Of a DNA stretch of 64,000 bases, positions 1,946 to 35,173 are shown piece after piece (the stretch's first letter is position 1; each line of letters starts with the position of its first letter). This stretch comes from Kribbella sp. VKM Ac-2569. Lineage in GTDB: Bacteria > Actinomycetota > Actinomycetes > Propionibacteriales > Kribbellaceae. The DNA lies in contig NZ_SGXJ01000006.1 in assembly GCF_004216905.1 (NCBI RefSeq), forward strand, positions 248,001 through 312,000, in the 5' to 3' direction. The notes beneath the pieces were generated by a model. The model was not told where the DNA came from, ran no database searches, and saw only the letters and a program-made list of their open reading frames with translations. The translations under genes were made by a program, and so were the position numbers.

Positions 1946-2779
1946 CTACTGGCCACCGGTGAATGGCGGCTGTCCGTCCTGTGGCGCGGGGGAACCCGCA
2001 GGCGGCCCGCCCACCGGTGGCTCTCCCTGGTACTGCCCCTGACCAGGCTGGCCCTGGTACGGCGGCTGCTGCGCGGGCTGCTGGTAGCCACCCGGGATCT
2101 GCTGCTGCGGCGGGTAGTTGCCCTGGTCCCCCGGCATCTGCGGGTGGATCTGGCCCGATGACGGCGCACCCGGCTGCATCTGCGGCGGCGCCTGCTCACC
2201 GGCGACCGAGCCGATCGTGCCGAACGAGACCTGCGGCACCGCGCGGACCTGCTCGTCCTTGACCTCGAAGTAACCGGCCTTCTCGAACTTGAAGCCGCCC
2301 GCGATCAGGTTCGACGGGAACGCCTCGATGCGGGTGTTGTAGTCGCCGACGTTCGCGTTGTAGAACCGGCGGCCGGCCGCGATCCGGTCCTCGGTGTCGG
2401 TCAGCTCGCGCTGCAGACCGAGGAAGTTCTGGTTCGACTGCAGCTGCGGGTACTGCTCGACCGAGATCATCATCTGACGCAGCGCGCCGGACAGCTGACC
2501 CTCCGCAGCGGCCCGCTGCTCCGGGTTGGAGCCCTGCACGTTCACCGCCTGGGTGCGCAACCGGGCGACCTCTTCGAACACGTGCCGCTCGTGCGCGGCG
2601 TACGCGCGCACGGTCTCGACCAGGTTCGGGATCAGGTCGTACCGGCGGTGCAGCTCGACGTCGATCTGCCGCCACGACTCCTGGATCAGGTTCCGCTGCT
2701 TGACGAACCGGTTGTACGACGTGATCAGCATGATCGCCAGAATGACGATCACCGCGACCACGATGATGACCCAAACCAT
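1946..2779 (-). CDS. LemA family membrane protein
   Basis: A 277-residue protein with an N-terminal membrane helix (residues 2-22, very rich in Val and Ile) followed by the helical LemA domain (LIQESWRQIDVELHRRYDLIP, then NFLGLQRELTDTEDRIAAGRRFYN). The last 70 residues are a Pro/Gln/Gly-rich tail. I chose the ATG at 2779 because a GGGAG site precedes it and the longer frame would run into the neighbouring gene. LemA proteins are anchored with the domain outside the membrane; their function is poorly defined. It lies downstream of pyrE and another membrane protein on the same strand and may be co-transcribed. Confidence 0.9.
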   Translation of the reverse strand: MVWVIIVVAVIVILAIMLITSYNRFVKQRNLIQESWRQIDVELHRRYDLIPNLVETVRAYAAHERHVFEEVARLRTQAVNVQGSNPEQRAAAEGQLSGALRQMMISVEQYPQLQSNQNFLGLQRELTDTEDRIAAGRRFYNANVGDYNTRIEAFPSNLIAGGFKFEKAGYFEVKDEQVRAVPQVSFGTIGSVAGEQAPPQMQPGAPSSGQIHPQMPGDQGNYPPQQQIPGGYQQPAQQPPYQGQPGQGQYQGEPPVGGPPAGSPAPQDGQPPFTGGQ

Positions 2780-2816
2780 GACGAGCTCCCGAGAGTTGGC
2801 AGTGCTGGGAGCGACT

Positions 2817-3548
2817 CTACGGGTAGCCGGGTCCGCCCGCCGGTGGCTGCTGGCCGCGAGGGTCGACGCCCGCGTAGTCACGCCAGACGTACCCAGGGAC
2901 GTTCAGAACCACCTGTTCGAGCAGCCCGAGGCGGTTCAGCACCTCGCTCGGGTTGTGCGCGCCGCTGTCCCAGCCGACCAGCGAATTCCCCTCGACCCGC
3001 CAGCCGATCTCGCCGCGGGCGAGCAGCATCTCCATCATCCGCGGCGTCACGACCGCGTGCCCGAACCGCTCGTCGTCGGCCTTCACCCGGAACGCCCGGT
3101 TGAACTGCTCGCTCTCGAACTGGATGTCCCGGAAGCCGAGCGCGTTGGCCACCGCGCCGCCGAAGATCCCCTCGTGCGTCACCTCGAGGTGCGGCAGCGC
3201 GCCAGGTAGTTGCAGCACGACGACACCGAAGTTGTGGGTGGTCGTCCGTCGCTGACCTTTCCCGTTCGTGGTGTGGGTCTGGTAGCTGTAGTCGAAAGCA
3301 ACCATCTGGTGACCGTTGAACGGACCCGACAGCACGTTCTTCGCGCGCCGGTTGTCGCCCGTGCGGAACGGCGTACCGGCCCATTGACCGGCCAGTGAGT
3401 TGTTGACCGGCACGTACGACCAGCCGTACTGGGCGGCGAGGCCGGCGAACATCTCCCGGCGCTTCTTCGCCCGGTAGTAGTTGAAGTAGGCGAGACCGCC
3501 GCCGACCACGAGCGCCAGCAGGATGAACAGAACGGTGTTGCTCTCCAT
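2817..3548 (-). CDS. Membrane-anchored protein of unknown function (DUF3137-like)
   Basis: A 243-residue protein with one N-terminal membrane helix (residues 6-25: VLFILLALVVGGGLAYF) and a basic stop-transfer segment YYRAKKRR. The remainder (WSYVPVNN, NHQMVAFDYSYQT, RVEGNSLVGWDSG) is predicted to be cytoplasmic or surface beta-rich sequence, resembling DUF3137-type proteins, but I do not recognise a catalytic motif. The tail is Pro/Gly rich. Its ATG overlaps the pyrE stop as ATGA, so the two are translationally coupled. The LemA gene follows after 37 bases, and LemA/DUF3137-like pairs in one operon suggest a shared envelope role (inference). Confidence 0.8.
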   Translation of the reverse strand: MESNTVLFILLALVVGGGLAYFNYYRAKKRREMFAGLAAQYGWSYVPVNNSLAGQWAGTPFRTGDNRRAKNVLSGPFNGHQMVAFDYSYQTHTTNGKGQRRTTTHNFGVVVLQLPGALPHLEVTHEGIFGGAVANALGFRDIQFESEQFNRAFRVKADDERFGHAVVTPRMMEMLLARGEIGWRVEGNSLVGWDSGAHNPSEVLNRLGLLEQVVLNVPGYVWRDYAGVDPRGQQPPAGGPGYP

Positions 3549-14699: not shown

Positions 14700-16652
14700 A
14701 TGTCCCGTTCGCACATGATCGCGGTCGCCGTGACGACCGCGCTCCTCGGTGCCGTGCTCACATCTCAACCAGCCGCCGCAGGCCCCGCGCCGCGGCTCAC
14801 CCGGGCCGGGCTCGATCCCGCTTTGGTGACCGGCCGCGGCGCCGACGTACCGTTCGTCGAGCAGGAGGCGGAGAACGCCGTCTTCACCGGCGAGCAGCTC
14901 GGCCCGGGGCGGGAGGCGTACACGCTCCCGGCCGAGGCTTCCGGGCGTACCGCCGTACGGCTGCAGCCCAAGCAGTACGTCGAATTCACGCTGACGCAGC
15001 CCGCGAACGCGTTCACGTTGCGGTACAGCATCCCGGACGCGCCGGCCGGCGGTGGGATCACCGCGCCGCTCGACGTGAGCGTCGACGGGAAGCACCGGCG
15101 GACGATGACGCTGACGTCGCAGTACGCGTGGCTGTACGGCATGTATCCGTTCTCCAACGACCCGAACGTCGACCCCATCCCGGGCTGGTGGAAGCCTGAC
15201 CCGGACCCGGTCGCCAAGCCGTTCCGACCGAACCACTTCTACGACGAGCAGCGAGTGATGCTCGACCGGACGTACCTGGCCGGCTCGCGCATTCGGTTCG
15301 CGGTACCTCGTGAGACCACGGCGGCGTGGACCGTGCTCGACGTCGCGGACTTCGAACTGGTGAAGGCCCCGTTGAAGCAGCCAGCACGGTCGCTCGACGT
15401 ACGGCTGTTCGGCGCCGACCCGACCGGACGACGGGACGCCGCGCCCGCGATCGAGCGCACGATCGCGGCCGCGCAGCGGATCGGCTGGTCGGTGTTCATC
15501 CCCGCGGGGACTTTCCAGATGAACCGGCACATCGTCGTCGACCAGGTCACGATCCGCGGCGCGGGCAACTGGTGGACGATCATCAAGGGCAAGGTGCTCC
15601 CGCTCGCCGAGCCCGCGCCGGACAAGTCGGTGCACAGCGCACCTGGCTTCTACGGCAAGTACGCCGCCGACGGCGGGAGCACCGGCGTACATCTGTCGGA
15701 CTTCGCGATCGAGAGCGATGTCAGCGAACGCATCGACACCGACCAGGTGAACGGAATCGGCGGCGCGATCGGCGGCGGCTCCACGATCGAGAACCTGTAC
15801 CTGCGCCACACCAAGGTCGGCATCTGGCTCGACGGCCCGATGGACAGCCTGCTGATCCGCAACAACGTCATCACCGACGCGGTTGCCGACGGCATCAATC
15901 TGCACCTCGGCGTCTCGAACGTCCGGGCCACCAACAACTTCGTCCGCAACAGCGGCGACGACGGGCTGGCGATGTGGTCGGAGGCGAACCCTTCCGGTGT
16001 GGTCAATCACGACAACGTCTACGACCACAACACCGTGCAGACACCCGTGCTCGCGAACAACATCGCGATCTACGGCGGCCGGGACAACGCGGTGACCGAC
16101 AACCTGGTCGCCGACCCGATCCGCGAGGGCAGCACGTTGCACGCCGGCTCGCGATTCAACGCGACGCCGTTCGAGGGCACGCTGACGTTCGCCCGCAACA
16201 CCACGGTCCGCGGCGGTCCGCGCGATCTCAACTGGAACATCGGCCTCGGCGCGATCTGGCTGTACGCGCTGCAGTCCACGATGTCCGCTCCGATCGAGAT
16301 CGTCGACAGTTCGTTCCTGGACTCGACGTACAACGCGATGATGTTCGTCGTCGACTGGCCGGTGAAGGACGACTACGCGATCACGGGAGTCGCCGTCCGC
16401 AACATCAAGGTCGACGGCACCGGGACCAACGTGGTGAACGCCCGGGTCGGCGGCTGGGCGACGTTCGAGAACGTCGAAGCCCGAAACGTCGGAGCCCCGT
16501 TCGTCAACAACTGCGGCACGTTCCACTTCAACGGCCCACCGGAGTTCGACGTACGACTCCTCGCCGGCAACGACGGCGGCTGGGCCGGCGCAACGTGGTG
16601 CGAAGACCGCCCCGCCGTCGTCCCGCCACCGCCGCCGTCTCCGTGGAACTGA
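14700..16652 (+). CDS. Secreted parallel beta-helix glycosidase, GH87-like (alpha-1,3-glucanase/mycodextranase type)
   Basis: A 650-residue exported protein: signal peptide at 1-28 (cleavage after AAA), a carbohydrate-binding-module-like beta-sandwich at about 50-222 (VEQEAENAVFTG; YVEFTLTQPANAFTLRYSIP), then a right-handed parallel beta-helix starting SLDVRLFGADPTGRRD. Asp397 in VADGINLH and the pair Asp420-Asp421 in NSGDDGLAMW have the 23- and 24-residue spacing I recall for the catalytic aspartates of GH87 alpha-1,3-glucanases. It probably attacks alpha-1,3-linked glucan, for example from fungal walls. A polysaccharide lyase or epimerase is a weaker alternative. A GGGAGGGG site supports the ATG at 14700. 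Confidence 0.68.
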   Translation: MSRSHMIAVAVTTALLGAVLTSQPAAAGPAPRLTRAGLDPALVTGRGADVPFVEQEAENAVFTGEQLGPGREAYTLPAEASGRTAVRLQPKQYVEFTLTQPANAFTLRYSIPDAPAGGGITAPLDVSVDGKHRRTMTLTSQYAWLYGMYPFSNDPNVDPIPGWWKPDPDPVAKPFRPNHFYDEQRVMLDRTYLAGSRIRFAVPRETTAAWTVLDVADFELVKAPLKQPARSLDVRLFGADPTGRRDAAPAIERTIAAAQRIGWSVFIPAGTFQMNRHIVVDQVTIRGAGNWWTIIKGKVLPLAEPAPDKSVHSAPGFYGKYAADGGSTGVHLSDFAIESDVSERIDTDQVNGIGGAIGGGSTIENLYLRHTKVGIWLDGPMDSLLIRNNVITDAVADGINLHLGVSNVRATNNFVRNSGDDGLAMWSEANPSGVVNHDNVYDHNTVQTPVLANNIAIYGGRDNAVTDNLVADPIREGSTLHAGSRFNATPFEGTLTFARNTTVRGGPRDLNWNIGLGAIWLYALQSTMSAPIEIVDSSFLDSTYNAMMFVVDWPVKDDYAITGVAVRNIKVDGTGTNVVNARVGGWATFENVEARNVGAPFVNNCGTFHFNGPPEFDVRLLAGNDGGWAGATWCEDRPAVVPPPPPSPWN

Positions 16653-16656
16653 CGGT

Positions 16657-16738
16657 TCCCCAGGCCATCACAATTAGCCGATGCCGGCGCGCTCCGGCGT
16701 GGTCGCTTCCTGATCCGGCGATTGTGATGGCCTGGGGA
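16657..16738. repeat. Palindromic repeat element, copy A
   Basis: The ends are a perfect 18-bp inverted repeat, TCCCCAGGCCATCACAAT at 16657-16674 and its complement at 16721-16738, closing 46 bases that contain an inner GCCGG/CCGGC hairpin. The same terminal sequence recurs in copies B and C. It fills the space between two convergent genes and supplies the last 21 codons and stop of the MFS gene. It could act as a bidirectional transcription terminator or be a MITE/REP-like mobile palindrome. Confidence 0.88.
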
Positions 16739-18233
16739 TCCGGAAGGCGGCCGTGAGGACGATCGCGCCAAGCAGGACGATGGCCGCGGCGACGCCGGCC
16801 GCGGTGTGCATGGCGTGGACGAAGGCGTCGTTCGCGAGTTGCACCAGGTCGGGGCGGTGCAGTGCGCCGGCCGCGTGGCGGGTCGCCTCGGCCGACGTAC
16901 CGATCGCCTCCTCGTTCGGCAGGCCGGTCAGGGCGGGCGCGATCTGGTGCTGGTACGTCGACGACACGACGGTCCCGAGTACGGCGACACCCAGCACGCT
17001 GCCCACCTGGCGCAGGGCGTTGCTGACCGCGGAGCCGGCCCCGATCCGATCCATCGGGAGCGTCGCCATCACGGCCGCGGTCGTCGGCGCGACGGTCATA
17101 CCGATCGCGAGTCCAGCGAGGCCGCCGATGATCCCGATCACCAAGAGCGACGTGCTGACGTCGTACGTGAGGTTGAGCGCGAAGCACGCTGCGAGGGTGA
17201 GGACCGCCGTACCTGACACCTTCGCGACACCGAGCCGCGCGGCCAGCCGGGCACCGAGTGGGGCGCCGACGACCACGCCCATTGCCCCGGGCAACGACAT
17301 CAGGCCCGCGTCCAGGGCGCTCATGCCGCGGGCGCCCTGGAGGTAGAACGCGAGGTAGAAGGCCTGCCCAGTAATGGTGAGGAAGACCGCCGCCAGCGAG
17401 AGGTTGCCCGCCGCGAACCGGCGATTGCGGAACAGGCGCGGGTCGAAGCTCGGCTCGGGTTCGCGCCACTCGGAGTACAGGAATCCGGCGAGCAGCACGA
17501 GGCCGGCGCCGATGCTTGCCCAGACCTGCCAGCGATCCCAGCCGCCTTGGTGACCGCCTTCGATCAGCCCGTACGACAGGCCGAGCAGTCCCAGCGTGGA
17601 CAGGCCGAGGCCGAGCGGGTCGAGCCGGCGGCGCTGCGGGCTGCGCGGGTTCGGGAGTACGACGGCGGCGCCGATCAGACCGAAGGCGACGATCGGCAGG
17701 TTGATCGTGAAGACCGAACCCCACCAGAAGTGATCGATCAGCACCCCGCCGAGCACCGGCCCGACGGCGACGCCGACACCGGCCGACGACGACCAGACCG
17801 CGATCGCACCGGCCCGGCGCTCCGGCGGGAAGGTCCAGCCGATGATCGCCATCGACGTGGGCATGATCAGCGCACCGCCGAGCCCCATGGTCGCGCGGGC
17901 GAGGATCAGGCCGGCCGGGTCGGTGGCCCACGCTGCCCAGGCGGAGGCGATGCCGAAGATCAGCAGGCCGAGCATCAGGACGGTTCGGTGGCCGTAGCGG
18001 TCCCCGAGGGCGCCGGCCAGGAACAGGGCGGTGGCGAACAACAGCGAATAGATGCCGACGGCCCACTGCAGCTGGCCGGGCGTGGCGCCGAGACCCGCTA
18101 CGGGATCGGCGAGGCGTTCGAGAGCGATACCGAGGACGGTCGAGTCGATCCAGATCAGGACGGCCGAGACGACCAGGATCGCGAGGATGCGGCGCTGGTG
18201 GATTGGACCTTGCGGGGGGTCGATCGCAGACAC
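16674..18233 (-). CDS. MFS multidrug exporter, DHA2 family (14 membrane segments)
   Basis: A 519-residue major facilitator protein. Motif A is GALGDRYGHRTVLM after TM2, and motif C of antiporters is visible as GVAVGPVLGGVLID in TM5; about 14 hydrophobic segments place it in the DHA2/EmrB group of proton-driven drug exporters. The GTG start at 18233 follows AGGAG; the far longer in-frame extension crosses the MarR gene and is not coding. The C-terminal tail after FRIP is read from palindromic repeat copy A. It is divergent from a MarR gene over a perfect operator, so it is probably drug-inducible. Confidence 0.93.
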   Translation of the reverse strand: MSAIDPPQGPIHQRRILAILVVSAVLIWIDSTVLGIALERLADPVAGLGATPGQLQWAVGIYSLLFATALFLAGALGDRYGHRTVLMLGLLIFGIASAWAAWATDPAGLILARATMGLGGALIMPTSMAIIGWTFPPERRAGAIAVWSSSAGVGVAVGPVLGGVLIDHFWWGSVFTINLPIVAFGLIGAAVVLPNPRSPQRRRLDPLGLGLSTLGLLGLSYGLIEGGHQGGWDRWQVWASIGAGLVLLAGFLYSEWREPEPSFDPRLFRNRRFAAGNLSLAAVFLTITGQAFYLAFYLQGARGMSALDAGLMSLPGAMGVVVGAPLGARLAARLGVAKVSGTAVLTLAACFALNLTYDVSTSLLVIGIIGGLAGLAIGMTVAPTTAAVMATLPMDRIGAGSAVSNALRQVGSVLGVAVLGTVVSSTYQHQIAPALTGLPNEEAIGTSAEATRHAAGALHRPDLVQLANDAFVHAMHTAAGVAAAIVLLGAIVLTAAFRIPRPSQSPDQEATTPERAGIG

Positions 18234-32320: not shown

Positions 32321-32341
32321 CTTGAGTTCACTGGACTCAAC
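32321..32341. promoter_or_regulatory. HAIR operator 2 of dnaK
   Basis: CTTGAGT-N7-ACTCAAC at 32321-32341 is a 13/14 match to the HAIR consensus and identical in both arms to the clpB site. It is 65 bases from HAIR 1, about six helical turns, so both could be bound co-operatively around the promoter. Confidence 0.9.
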
Positions 32342-32456
32342 ATTGCACGACGGTCAGGTCATTCCCAAGGGCGGCCCCCGATTTCGGGGTCCCGGCCAGG
32401 GTGCGGCCAGGGAGACCCCTCCCGATGCAAACGTTTACCGTGCGATCCTGCTCAGT

Positions 32457-32933
32457 GTGAAACTCCGCCCGATGACCGCAGCCGACCTCGGCGCGGTTCT
32501 CGCGCTGAATGCCTCCGCCGCGGGGCTCGTCGACCCCCTGAACCCCGACCGCCTGGACTGGCTCCGGCTGATCGCCGCACACGCCGTCGTCGTCGACCTG
32601 GACGACGTACCCGCCGGGTTCGTCCTCACGTTCACCCCGGGTTCGGCGTACGACGGGCTGGCGTTCGAGGCGTTCACCCAGACGTACGCCGACCGGTTCC
32701 TGCTCATAGAGCGAATCGTGATCGCCGCCGAGCACCGGCGCACCGGCATCGCGACCCAGGTCTACCGCGCGATCGAACGAGCCGCCAAGCCCTTCGACCG
32801 CACAGTCGCCGCCGTCCCGACTGACACGCCGGCGATCGACTTCCACCACGCCCGCGGCTACATCGAGGTCGCCAAACAACGCCTCCCCAACGGCACCACC
32901 ACCGCCCTCCTGTCCAAGGAACTGTCCGACTAG
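32457..32933 (+). CDS. GNAT-family N-acetyltransferase
   Basis: A 158-residue GNAT from a GTG start (KLRPMTAADLGAVLALNASA), which gives the normal GNAT N-terminus; the longer frame runs into the dnaK operators. Motif A is IERIVIAAEHRRTGIATQVY near residue 84-103 with the RRTGIA acetyl-CoA loop, and the C-terminal part contains DFHHARGYIEVAKQRL. It is divergent from dnaK, 217 bases apart, and might respond to HspR through HAIR 2 (weak inference). Repeat copy B begins 11 bases after its stop. Confidence 0.85.
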   Translation: MKLRPMTAADLGAVLALNASAAGLVDPLNPDRLDWLRLIAAHAVVVDLDDVPAGFVLTFTPGSAYDGLAFEAFTQTYADRFLLIERIVIAAEHRRTGIATQVYRAIERAAKPFDRTVAAVPTDTPAIDFHHARGYIEVAKQRLPNGTTTALLSKELSD

Positions 32934-32943
32934 ATTGCGACCG

Positions 32944-33019
32944 CCAGGCCATCACAATTGAACGTCCCTCGCCTGGCCACGCGGGCACGGCCAGCCGGCC
33001 GTCAATTGTGATGGCCTGG
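32944..33019. repeat. Palindromic repeat element, copy B
   Basis: Perfect 18-bp inverted ends, CCAGGCCATCACAATTGA at 32944-32961 and its complement at 33002-33019. The 40-base interior has a second hairpin, CTGGCC...GGCCAG, and the segment CGCCTGGCCACGC (32970-32982) that is identical in copy C at the same distance from the left end. It sits between the GNAT gene and the DUF559-like gene. Confidence 0.9.
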
Positions 33020-33058
33020 AGATCGCCTGTGGACAACTCCCGACGCGACATGCGCTAG

Positions 33059-33991
33059 GTGCGCCACCATGAAGACGTGCCCGAGGTCATCGATGTGCTG
33101 CTGCGACGGGAGGGCGTGGCGACGTTCGGAGAGCTGCGGGCGATCGTGTCCGGCCACGCGATTCGCGCCGCCCTGGCCGGCGGATCGATCCGCCGGATCG
33201 CGAAAGGCGTCTATGCGCTGCCGACTGCGCCCGATCCGATCGCGGCCGCCCGTGCCCAGGGCGGGCTGGTGTCGCATCTCAGCGCAGCGGTGCTGCACGG
33301 ATTCGACGTGCTGGAACTGCCGGACAAACCCCAGATCACCGTCCCGCGCGGGCAGCACCGACGGCTGAGTCCGGTGAAGTGCGAGCTGCACTGGGCCGAC
33401 AACGTGCCGTCCGACGGCCCGTGCACCAGCAGGCTCCAGACGGTTCTGGACTGCGCGCGGACCTTGCCGTTCGCGGCCGGTCTCTCGATCGCAGACTCCG
33501 CGCTCCGCGGTCGTGTCCTGGACCGCTCCCAGCTCATGGTCGCCGCTGCGGAGCTGAGCGGACCGGGCTGTCGACGGGCGCGGCGGGTTGCGGCCGCTGC
33601 GGACGGACGGGCCGAGTCGCCGCTCGAATCGGTGCTTCGCGCGATCCTGATCGAGGCGGGCATCATCGGGTTCGAGCCACAGGTCGTGGTGCGCGACGGC
33701 ACCTTCTCGGCCCGGATCGACCTGGCCAACTCGGCGCTGATGATCGCGCTCGAGGCCGACAGCTTCGCCCACCACGGGACTCGTACGGCGCTCGCCCGCG
33801 ATTGCCGTCGGCATGTCAGCCTGACGGTTCGCGGCTGGCGGCTCCTGCGGTTCTCCTGGGAGGACGTGATGTTCGACCGCGAGTGGGTGGTCGCCGCGAT
33901 CCGCGCGGCGGTGGCCGGATCTCCAGGCCATCACAATGCTCGGGAATCGCGCCTGGCCACGCTGGGATCGATCGGCCAGGGGCAATTGTGA
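33059..33991 (+). CDS. DUF559/AbiEi-like protein with restriction-endonuclease-type domain
   Basis: A 310-residue protein from GTG (a second GTG at codon 7 is possible). The first 70 residues look like the winged-helix antitoxin domain of AbiEi proteins (VIDVLLRREGVATFGELRAI, RIAKGVYALP). The C-terminal part (about 215-285: SARIDLANSALMIALEADSF, LTVRGWRLLRFSWEDV) is the DUF559/Vsr-like fold of short-patch nucleases, with Asp and Glu in the IDLA...IALEAD positions as candidate metal ligands. The last 22 residues and the stop codon come from repeat copy C. It is bracketed by copies B and C. Function is unknown; DNA repair, defence or mobility are possible. Confidence 0.78.
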   Translation: MRHHEDVPEVIDVLLRREGVATFGELRAIVSGHAIRAALAGGSIRRIAKGVYALPTAPDPIAAARAQGGLVSHLSAAVLHGFDVLELPDKPQITVPRGQHRRLSPVKCELHWADNVPSDGPCTSRLQTVLDCARTLPFAAGLSIADSALRGRVLDRSQLMVAAAELSGPGCRRARRVAAAADGRAESPLESVLRAILIEAGIIGFEPQVVVRDGTFSARIDLANSALMIALEADSFAHHGTRTALARDCRRHVSLTVRGWRLLRFSWEDVMFDREWVVAAIRAAVAGSPGHHNARESRLATLGSIGQGQL

Positions 33992-33999
33992 TGGCGTGG
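33923..33999. repeat. Palindromic repeat element, copy C
   Basis: CCAGGCCATCACAAT (33923-33937) and ATTGTGATGGCGTGG (33985-33999) form a 15-bp inverted repeat with one mismatch. It has the same internal CGCCTGGCCACGC (33950-33962) and GGCCAG as copy B. It lies between the convergent DUF559-like and hutI genes and encodes the end of the former, using the TGA of ATTGTGA as stop. Confidence 0.88.
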
Positions 34000-34009
34000 G
34001 GGTTCGCCC

Positions 34010-35173
34010 CTACACCAGTCGCCCGGCGATGAAGGTTTGCGTGACCAAAGGGACCGCCGGGCGGTAGGCGAGGTGTAGGTAGGACGGGGCGTCCAGGACG
34101 GCTAGGTCGGCTTGGGTGCCGGGGGTTAGGTGGCCTAGGTCGGGGCGGCGGAGGGAAGCGGCTCCGCCGGCGGTGGCGGACCAGAGGGCTTCGGCGGGGG
34201 TCATGTGCATTTCGCGGACGGCGAGCGCGATGCAGAAGGGCATGGAGGACGAGTAGCCGGAGCCGGGGTTGCAGTCGGTGGCGAGGGCTACGGTGACGCC
34301 GGCGTCGAGGAGGCGGCGGGCGTTCGGGTACGGCGACCTCGTGGAGAACTCGATCGCGGGCAGCAGCCCGGCGACGACGCCACTCGAGGCGAGCGCGTCG
34401 ACGTCGGCATCGGTGAGATAGGTGCAGTGATCGGCCGAGGCGGCGCCGACCTCGGCCGCGAGTTGGACGCCGGGCCCCTCGCCGAGTTGGTTGGCGTGCA
34501 CTCGCGCTTGCAGGCCGCGCGCGATCCCGGCCTGGAGGATCGCCCGTCCTTGGTCCGCGTCGAACGCGCCACGCTCGACGAAGACGTCGATCCACCTCGA
34601 GTGCTTGGCCGCCGCGTCGAGCATCGGCCCCGTCACGAGCGACACGTAGCCCACCGGGTCGTCGGCGTAATCGGCCGGTACGACGTGCGCACCGAGGTAC
34701 GTCGTCTCTTCGGTGAACTGCCGCGCGATCTGCAGCCCCCGCGCCTCGTCCGCGACCGTCAGCCCGTACCCGGACTTGATCTCGACGGTCGTCGTCCCCT
34801 GCCGGCGCATCTCCGCGACCAGCCGGGACACGTTCGCGGTCAGCTGTTCGTCGGTGGCCTCCCGCGTCGCCGCCACCGTGGTCCGGATGCCGCCCGCGGA
34901 GTACGGCGTACCGGTCATCCGGGCCGCGAACTCCTCGGCCCGGTCGCCGGCGAACACCAGGTGCGAGTGCGAGTCGACGAACCCCGGGATCACTGCCCGC
35001 CCGCCGAGGTCGATCGCACTGTCGGCCGCCGGCGCCTCGCGCCGCGATCCGACCCACGCGACCATGCTCCCGTCGATCACGAGCGCCGCGTCGTGGAGCT
35101 CACCGAGCAACCCGCCATGGGCGGGATCGTTCGTCACCAACGACCCGATACCGGTCAGCAGGAGTGAGCTCAC
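34010..35173 (-). CDS. hutI: Imidazolonepropionase
   Basis: HutI hydrolyses 4-imidazolone-5-propionate to N-formimino-L-glutamate, step three of histidine breakdown. The 387-residue amidohydrolase has the metal-binding HxH in DSHSHLVF near residue 67, substrate Arg/Tyr region [20 protein letters not shown] near 158, a metal His in VHANQLGE and the Asp in ALATDCNPG. The GTG overlaps the hutF stop as GTGA. Last gene of the long minus-strand hut cluster. Confidence 0.96.

Follow-up and report, generated by a model that had tools for sequence, protein, structure and literature searches.

Short palindromes scattered through a genome, of the kind considered here, have to our knowledge had their spread linked to one enzyme family, the RAYTs. 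REPINs, as set out in the cited part of PMC3116915, are REP doublets in inverted arrangement near cognate RAYT genes; their ends are conserved and their spacers are constrained in length. A given RAYT gene is mostly single-copy, and the cited sections of PMC8266576 report no evidence of its own mobility and describe the RAYT mechanism as unresolved. A second, unrelated point of comparison is the EDxHD homing endonuclease I-Bth0305I, which in the cited account (PMC3943268) acts as a dimer on a target of nearly 60 bp.

Here we describe a locus of Kribbella sp. VKM Ac-2569 (genome G000) where similar palindromes bracket a gene of another type. The window, by which we mean the whole 64,000-nucleotide stretch analyzed (positions 248,001 to 312,000 of contig NZ_SGXJ01000006.1), holds three copies of the repeat, two of them around a DUF559 gene. 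We consider the best reading to be a system that resembles REP/RAYT but rests on an unrelated enzyme, a predicted Vsr/EDxHD-like nuclease that also carries a winged helix.

Results

A palindromic repeat of nearly fixed length

The palindromic repeat claimed in the first-pass annotation is real. The spaced core CCATCACAA-N44..56-TTGTGATGG occurs three times in the window and had a maximum of 0 across 100 dinucleotide shuffles. Element A, a dispersed copy with orthologues in other Kribbella genomes, has approximate limits of 16652..16743 (core 16660-16735), and a predicted gene ends 7 bases before it. Element B occupies 32937..33026 with its outer blocks (GCGACCG ... AGATCGC), with a 76-bp core at 32944-33019 and the arms CCAGGCCATCACAATTG and CAATTGTGATGGCCTGG. 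Element C has its core at 33923-33999, extends over 33917..34006 once its outer blocks are included, and shares bases with the 3' end of the DUF559 ORF. None of the three has an assigned strand.

B and C lie between two flanking genes outside the unit, a GNAT acetyltransferase gene (32322..32933, + strand; the true start is probably later, e.g. 32472) and hutI, encoding imidazolonepropionase (34010..35173, - strand). Counted from the core limits, 10 bases separate the GNAT stop (TAG, 32931-32933) from element B, and another 10 separate element C from the hutI stop (34010), so the 11-base spacings first given were right within one base. The two copies do bracket one gene, as had been noted, but the right copy is not wholly outside it, the stop of the ORF (TGA, 33989-33991) sitting within the right arm of C. 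As RNA, the stretches of A, B and C (85-88 nt) fold at -48 to -57 kcal/mol. Within 32800-34200, the span that contains B and C, we found no terminator-like hairpin with a T tract, and nothing matching in Rfam.

The class I repeat, as we call units with this core, consists of inverted ends and a variable middle, with nearly fixed length. Its arms are of the CCAGGCCATCACAATTG type, with positions 7-13 invariant across the 48 arms of G000 units, and arm conservation extends outward for ~6 bases (CGGACC) and then ends. The core-to-core span is 66 or 67 bp in 159 of 181 distinct pattern matches from the fetched DNA, which includes 18 loci of unrelated taxa. The interior is variable except for a GC at its center, which carries ~1 bit in the 67-bp class and 1.8 and 1.6 bits in the 66-bp class. 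It folds no better than shuffled sequence (median z -0.07, with 15 of 159 below -2), giving no general sign of an inner hairpin. Since the search pattern fixes the inner 9 bases of the arms, their conservation among pattern matches is not independent evidence; in a half-site search permitting decay, arms were still far more alike than interiors. The repeat can be described as layered: outermost is a block of the GCGGACC/GGTCCGC type, next comes a core specific to the allele (here GGCCATCACAATTG), and a variable interior makes up the third layer. The outer block is common to families I, II and III, the core differs by protein subfamily, and the interior length is nearly fixed within each family, the whole repeat measuring ~90-96 bp.

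The bracketed gene encodes a predicted winged-helix nuclease

The 310-codon ORF between B and C (33059..33991, + strand, starting at GTG 33059 or GTG 33077) is a DUF559/MTES_1575 gene. Its earlier description as DUF559/AbiEi-like is upheld: the Pfam DUF559 match (1.1e-5) is over that model's curated cut-off and the MTES_1575 match (5.8e-8) under that model's, the AbiEi_4 match is weak (0.025), and PADLOC AbiEi models match down to 3.3e-10.

The predicted model, built on a five-sequence alignment with a mean pLDDT of 67, suggests a winged helix at residues ~1-58, a middle region and a C-terminal Vsr/EDxHD-like nuclease fold at ~184-286. In this model of pLDDT 67, the nuclease domain would superpose on 3hrl with Z 8.2 (83 residues, 3.5 A), on the I-Bth0305I catalytic domain (3r3p) with Z 8.1 (85 residues, 2.9 A) and on Vsr with Z 6.9 (91 residues, 3.0 A). 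The winged helix matches an AbiEi antitoxin at Z 7.2, one among many winged-helix matches. These Z values appear middling. Profile comparison gave E values of 0.018 to 3hrl and 0.62 to 3r3p, and Foldseek returned no match at E<0.001 for the full-length AlphaFold model against the PDB. Ten residues do not vary among 46 Kribbella representatives: E190, Q208, R219, D221, E232, H239, D248, C249, R251 and W260. Of these, E190, D221, H239 and D248 could correspond to the EDxHD motif, a suggestion rather than a computed alignment. In the portion of PMC12907096 cited here, the Caulobacter DUF559 protein VsrA is linked to DNA damage in cells without a cytosine methyltransferase, which fits a nuclease activity in the broader DUF559 family.

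Of 38 Kribbella genomes, 36 have DUF559 homologs. In a second genus of the order, probably Nocardioides, 73 of 78 genomes have DUF559 matches, many of the weaker ones perhaps belonging to other DUF559 families. There was no match among 72,556 plasmid records, and IMG/VR, searched for viral carriage, held one relative (36% over ~100 residues). Internal stop codons interrupt the DUF559 genes L241 (G020), L268 (G031) and L270 (G014), which are probably decaying copies.

Class I repeats are dispersed through the genome

A half-site search of G000 allowing up to 3 mismatches returned 69 half-sites, versus 12 for a reversed control. Full units of 75-77 bp, with up to 3 mismatches in both arms, number 24, A, B and C among them, and at least one more lies beyond these, at locus L038, where the right arm is weaker. 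By simple gene calls, 20 of the 24 lie no more than 15 bp from the 3' end of a predicted gene. The 21 units outside called genes occupy 10 convergent, 9 codirectional and 2 divergent gaps, and 3 overlap a called gene. Across the G000 loci L034-L058, the nearness of units to stop codons exceeds what plain avoidance of coding DNA seems to need.

The exact class I core pattern was found in 24 of 38 Kribbella genomes, at 0-43 copies per genome, and in none of 255 other genomes of the order. Class I matches in unrelated taxa are scattered, among the matches listed, and look like chance. At L391 (G001:C137:1-1400), three near-identical class I units stand in tandem at a 207-bp spacing.

Gene and repeats differ as a block at the GNAT-hutI locus

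The hutI locus was examined in 30 of 38 Kribbella genomes, with 1.5 kb fetched. Twelve carry a DUF559 gene 75-100% identical to that of the window with CCATCACAA units on both sides (class I), and three of these genomes (G005, G033 and G035) show a mismatch in one of the two arms of the upstream unit. Another 13 carry a 53-61% identical gene without CCATCACAA units (class II), flanked by units of the same design with the cores CACTCACCAA, CACTGACCAA, CACACACCAA, CACTCAGCAA and variants; when one mismatch was permitted, a motif check located such units, 79-80 bp long, on both sides of the gene in 13 of 13 class II alleles. The gene of G020 is 74% identical, with an internal stop and a different core. 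Four genomes have no DUF559 gene within 1.5 kb, and in one of them, G003, a 60% identical gene lies ~1.5 kb away. At several class II loci (L246, L254, L258 and others) the 3' repeat overlaps the coding sequence, so that the protein tail, of the type LTK...RAA-stop, is encoded by the repeat.

Allele classes differ in the gene and in its two repeats at once, as a block at a fixed locus. Between G000 and G029, identity in 60-base windows is ~0.8-1.0 in GNAT and hutI and 0.45-0.8 between their stops. Placed on a hutI tree, with G020 taken as class I, allele class requires 7 changes, at least 4 of them on well-supported branches. The CCATCACAA gene type was found at the GNAT-hutI locus only, and the early proposal, in the simple form of a whole unit jumping to new places, is not supported; what is scattered is the short repeat. 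The gap between GNAT and hutI, where the proposal had called for a look at relatives, lacks a DUF559 unit in G012 (L093) and G011 (L098), but other, partly shared DNA is there instead, and these are not clean empty sites.

Flanking repeats match the protein they flank

By one fixed criterion, matching palindromes stand on both sides of 74 of 97 Kribbella DUF559 loci, a set from which six partial matches were left out and in which four loci are counted twice. The same holds for 14 of 30 loci in the second genus, its best-scoring ones, versus 6 of 294 random positions in fetched loci of both genera. The Kribbella count is likely low, since automatic detection misses real units; for the hutI-locus gene of G004 it found none, and the motif check found both.

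Each DUF559 subfamily has its own arm type. Among the 70 distinct genes that have a matched pair, the more alike two proteins are, the more alike their arms (Spearman 0.72 between protein identity and arm similarity, a value reached in 0 of 500 permutations), and this correlation partly reflects shared descent. As for tying specificity to one protein region, a regression favored residues 59-120 (standardized coefficient 2.3; winged helix 0.8), but its predictors are collinear and we therefore make no claim that these residues set specificity. On a Kribbella rubisoli contig (L139), a class I repeat (unit 2528-2593) lies just upstream of a 32%-identical DUF559-type gene (~2678-3544), so other DUF559 subfamilies may also be tied to repeats.

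Copy number is higher where the cognate gene is present

The two units beside the gene itself are part of the copy counts except where noted. Class I units number 13-43 in the 13 genomes with a CCATCACAA-flanked gene (the 12 described above and G036) and 0-22 in the other 25 (p 4e-7, relatedness ignored). Without the two flanking units, the 13 gene-bearing genomes still hold 11-41 copies (p 7e-7, again ignoring relatedness). For class II (CACTCACCAA) the counts are 1-21 in the 12 assigned gene-bearing genomes and 0-16 in the 26 without (p 3e-4, or 0.002 minus the two own copies, relatedness ignored in both). Class III (CAGGCAGAACC) copies occur in 7 genomes, including 6 of 6 with that gene type. 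Away from the gene they are found in 6 of 38 genomes, 5 of these among the 6 gene-bearing (p 7e-5, with relatedness ignored), the sole copy in G021 being the gene's own. G002 has class III copies without a class III gene and contains a partial DUF559 gene. A phylogeny-corrected comparison yielded 4 independent pairs, of which on average 3.4 agree and 0 disagree, too few for a test.

A further core, CACTGAYCAA (class II'), was predicted beforehand in 4 genomes, which contain 27, 18, 3 and 2 copies; in G014 both of the 2 copies are the gene's own flanks, as is at least one of the 3 in G028. Eight unpredicted genomes contain 22, 11, 9, 7, 2, 2, 1 and 1 copies, which indicates that repeats without a cognate gene are common, and in G004, with 11, that core was later found beside the hutI-locus gene. 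At the locus, G029, which is closely related to G000, bears a class II allele, yet its genome contains 22 class I copies. The 12 class II copies of G011 come with no DUF559 homolog at E 1e-20. We infer that orphan repeats are remnants of replaced alleles, a reading that fits G029 and that G011 keeps conditional.

Adjacency to DUF559 genes, which the first-pass annotation had led us to look for, does not extend to most copies, as 22 of 24 in G000 do not adjoin one. Judged by immediate neighbors alone, this is the outcome that would speak against the proposed link; the association does exist at the level of the genome and in the gene's own flanks.

Units have moved, occasionally

In G013, the likeness of three class I units runs from GCGGAC to GTACGC and, save for a few bases on the left, stops there, which marks where the unit begins and ends. 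Of 5 related class I units in G008, 3 sit between class II arms. The three composites resemble one another and may be one event copied; they are shorter than plain insertion into an 80-bp unit would give. Three related units of G004 are fused to the arms of another family, and four tandem cases inspected by eye have members of different families meeting at, or close to, the outer blocks. A class II-type unit and a class I unit are no more than 300 bp apart in 4 of 26 cases in G001 and 2 of 10 in G002 (p 0.005 and 0.009, respectively, under a null restricted to a tenth of the genome). Because the G013 copies are alike only inside the unit, and because units are nested or fused, we conclude that units have moved.

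One G017 unit is absent from G000, where 14 bp of other DNA lies between flanks that are 94-96% identical; a second G017 site was left out, G000 being too diverged there. Copy A is common to 8 genomes and absent in 2 resolved ones, whose empty site holds ~54 bp of other DNA (G022, G033, G005 and G023 were left out of the resolved set). No target-site duplication is visible at the one G017 empty/occupied site, at copy A or at the three G013 copies, and no clean empty site appeared in 3340 flank pairings, many of them the same locus repeated, or in site alignments. Comparison of 43 orthologous pairs showed more divergence in the interior than in the flanks, which include coding DNA. Many units hold conserved positions in relatives, indicating that movement is occasional, not frequent.

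Discussion

The association between gene and repeat is a matter of observation. The flanking arms change with the DUF559 protein and copy number is higher with the cognate allele, which supports the suggested protein-palindrome link and the analogy drawn with REP palindromes and RAYTs; a mobile gene unit in its simple form is the part of that early interpretation that was not supported. We think it probable that the locus is part of a REPtron-like system, in which a predicted DUF559 nuclease has cognate, non-autonomous palindromic repeats. That the nuclease drives the spread of the repeats is something we infer from this association.

We propose a model where the DUF559 protein would bind the two inverted cores as a dimer and nick or cut at the shared outer block. 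The unit might then be copied or moved elsewhere, with the outer block as the preferred join point. Such a division of labor, with recognition in the core and cutting and joining at the outer block, would explain how cores can differ between families while the outer block is shared, why tandem neighbors meet at the outer block, and why the length between the arms is near-fixed and its sequence free.

Other explanations have to be weighed against this model. The repeats could be operator-type sites of an autoregulating DNA-binding protein, their dispersed copies forming a regulon, and the AbiEi-like N-terminus, the two sites around the gene, the conserved cores with nearly fixed spacing and the retained central GC would all suit a regulator. 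We consider this unlikely, as 20 of 24 copies are within 15 bp of gene 3' ends and only 2 in divergent gaps, the nuclease residues are invariant in 46 representatives, and units nest, fuse and, in three cases from one genome, are alike between unlike flanks. That same placement just past stop codons, with 10 of 24 between convergent genes, and the -48 to -57 kcal/mol folding of A, B and C as RNA bring to mind bidirectional terminators or 3' mRNA stabilizers that the host maintains and that bracket the DUF559 gene only incidentally. This is very unlikely in our view: the interval 32800-34200 around B and C has no terminator-like hairpin with a T tract, the copies share a core that changes with the DUF559 allele, and copy number runs from 0 to 43 among congeners.

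Homing offers a different account of the locus itself, in which the nuclease would cut alleles without its repeats and a repeat-gene-repeat cassette would replace the resident by gene conversion, the dispersed repeats being by-products or protected sites. Block-wise difference with limits near the unit ends, repeated class switches on the hutI tree and a predicted fold near that of an EDxHD homing endonuclease, from a family described in the cited part of PMC3943268 as dimerizing on a target of nearly 60 bp, speak for it. Flanking coding constraint could also set the exchange limits, though, and homing alone does not account for up to 43 copies per genome, which leaves it improbable. Terminal inverted repeats, small size and dispersal are equally the marks of classical MITEs, here of an unrelated and unseen transposase, flanking DUF559 genes by chance. 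However, several repeat families each match the DUF559 protein that they flank, and no target duplication was seen; we regard chance flanking by MITEs as extremely improbable.

Returning to the nuclease with its cognate repeats, it is tempting to extend the proposal. A large family of actinobacterial DUF559 winged-helix nucleases may be an independent, non-HUH counterpart of REP/RAYT, each recognizing its own repeat through an allele-specific core and spreading it by cutting a shared outer block, with cassette exchange at fixed loci diversifying the cores and leaving layers of live and orphan repeats. We hold this wider view to be evenly balanced between right and wrong. Our literature search, with most subscription papers and all of bioRxiv outside its scope, found no description of DUF559-associated repeats, and the data suggest a seemingly undescribed way for bacterial genomes to gain dispersed repeats. 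Were another enzyme family, unrelated to RAYTs, to have cognate repeats of its own, the arrangement would have to have arisen at least twice, and a DUF559 family without a described function would gain one. Further, the natural specificity swaps, with different cores at one locus, make protein-DNA recognition directly testable.

How, then, does the system stand among those already known? Like MITEs, the repeats are short and dispersed, with terminal inverted repeats; unlike them, they showed no target duplication at the sites compared and have no known parent transposase, and it is the partner nuclease type that tracks the repeat core. The winged-helix N-terminus is shared with AbiEi antitoxins of type IV toxin-antitoxin systems, whereas no AbiEii toxin gene lies directly beside the Kribbella gene, whose neighbors are GNAT and hutI. 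The predicted nuclease fold and the invariant E, D, H and D that could match EDxHD suggest kinship with I-Bth0305I and Vsr, and the proposed dimer would be a further likeness to I-Bth0305I, described in the cited account as dimerizing on a long target (PMC3943268). In contrast to those enzymes, the Kribbella gene lies outside an intron, is linked to dispersed cognate palindromes and has a winged-helix N-terminus.

The closest resemblance in design is to REP/REPIN-RAYT systems, at least as the cited parts of PMC3116915 and PMC8266576 portray them. Shared with these are an inverted doublet whose ends are conserved and whose spacer is less so, though constrained in length, the extragenic position, dispersed copies together with copies flanking one cognate gene, tandem clusters, and the coevolution of protein and repeat. 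Several features differ. The Kribbella interior shows no excess pairing, unlike that of REPINs; the class I arm profile is without the GTAG tag, which some class IV arms contain; and exact matches number 0-43 per genome and family pattern, compared to the hundreds to thousands given for REPs in the sources as cited. A Y1 transposase (PF01797) was found in 1 of 38 Kribbella genomes (G008, L378 = G008:C7:51482-51820), with none in the other 37, G000 included, which makes RAYTs an unlikely agent. The partner is instead a DUF559 protein, a predicted Vsr/EDxHD-like nuclease with a winged helix, and not an HUH Y1 transposase. As the HUH enzyme is what defines REP/RAYT, we place the Kribbella system beside it, as a counterpart rather than a member.
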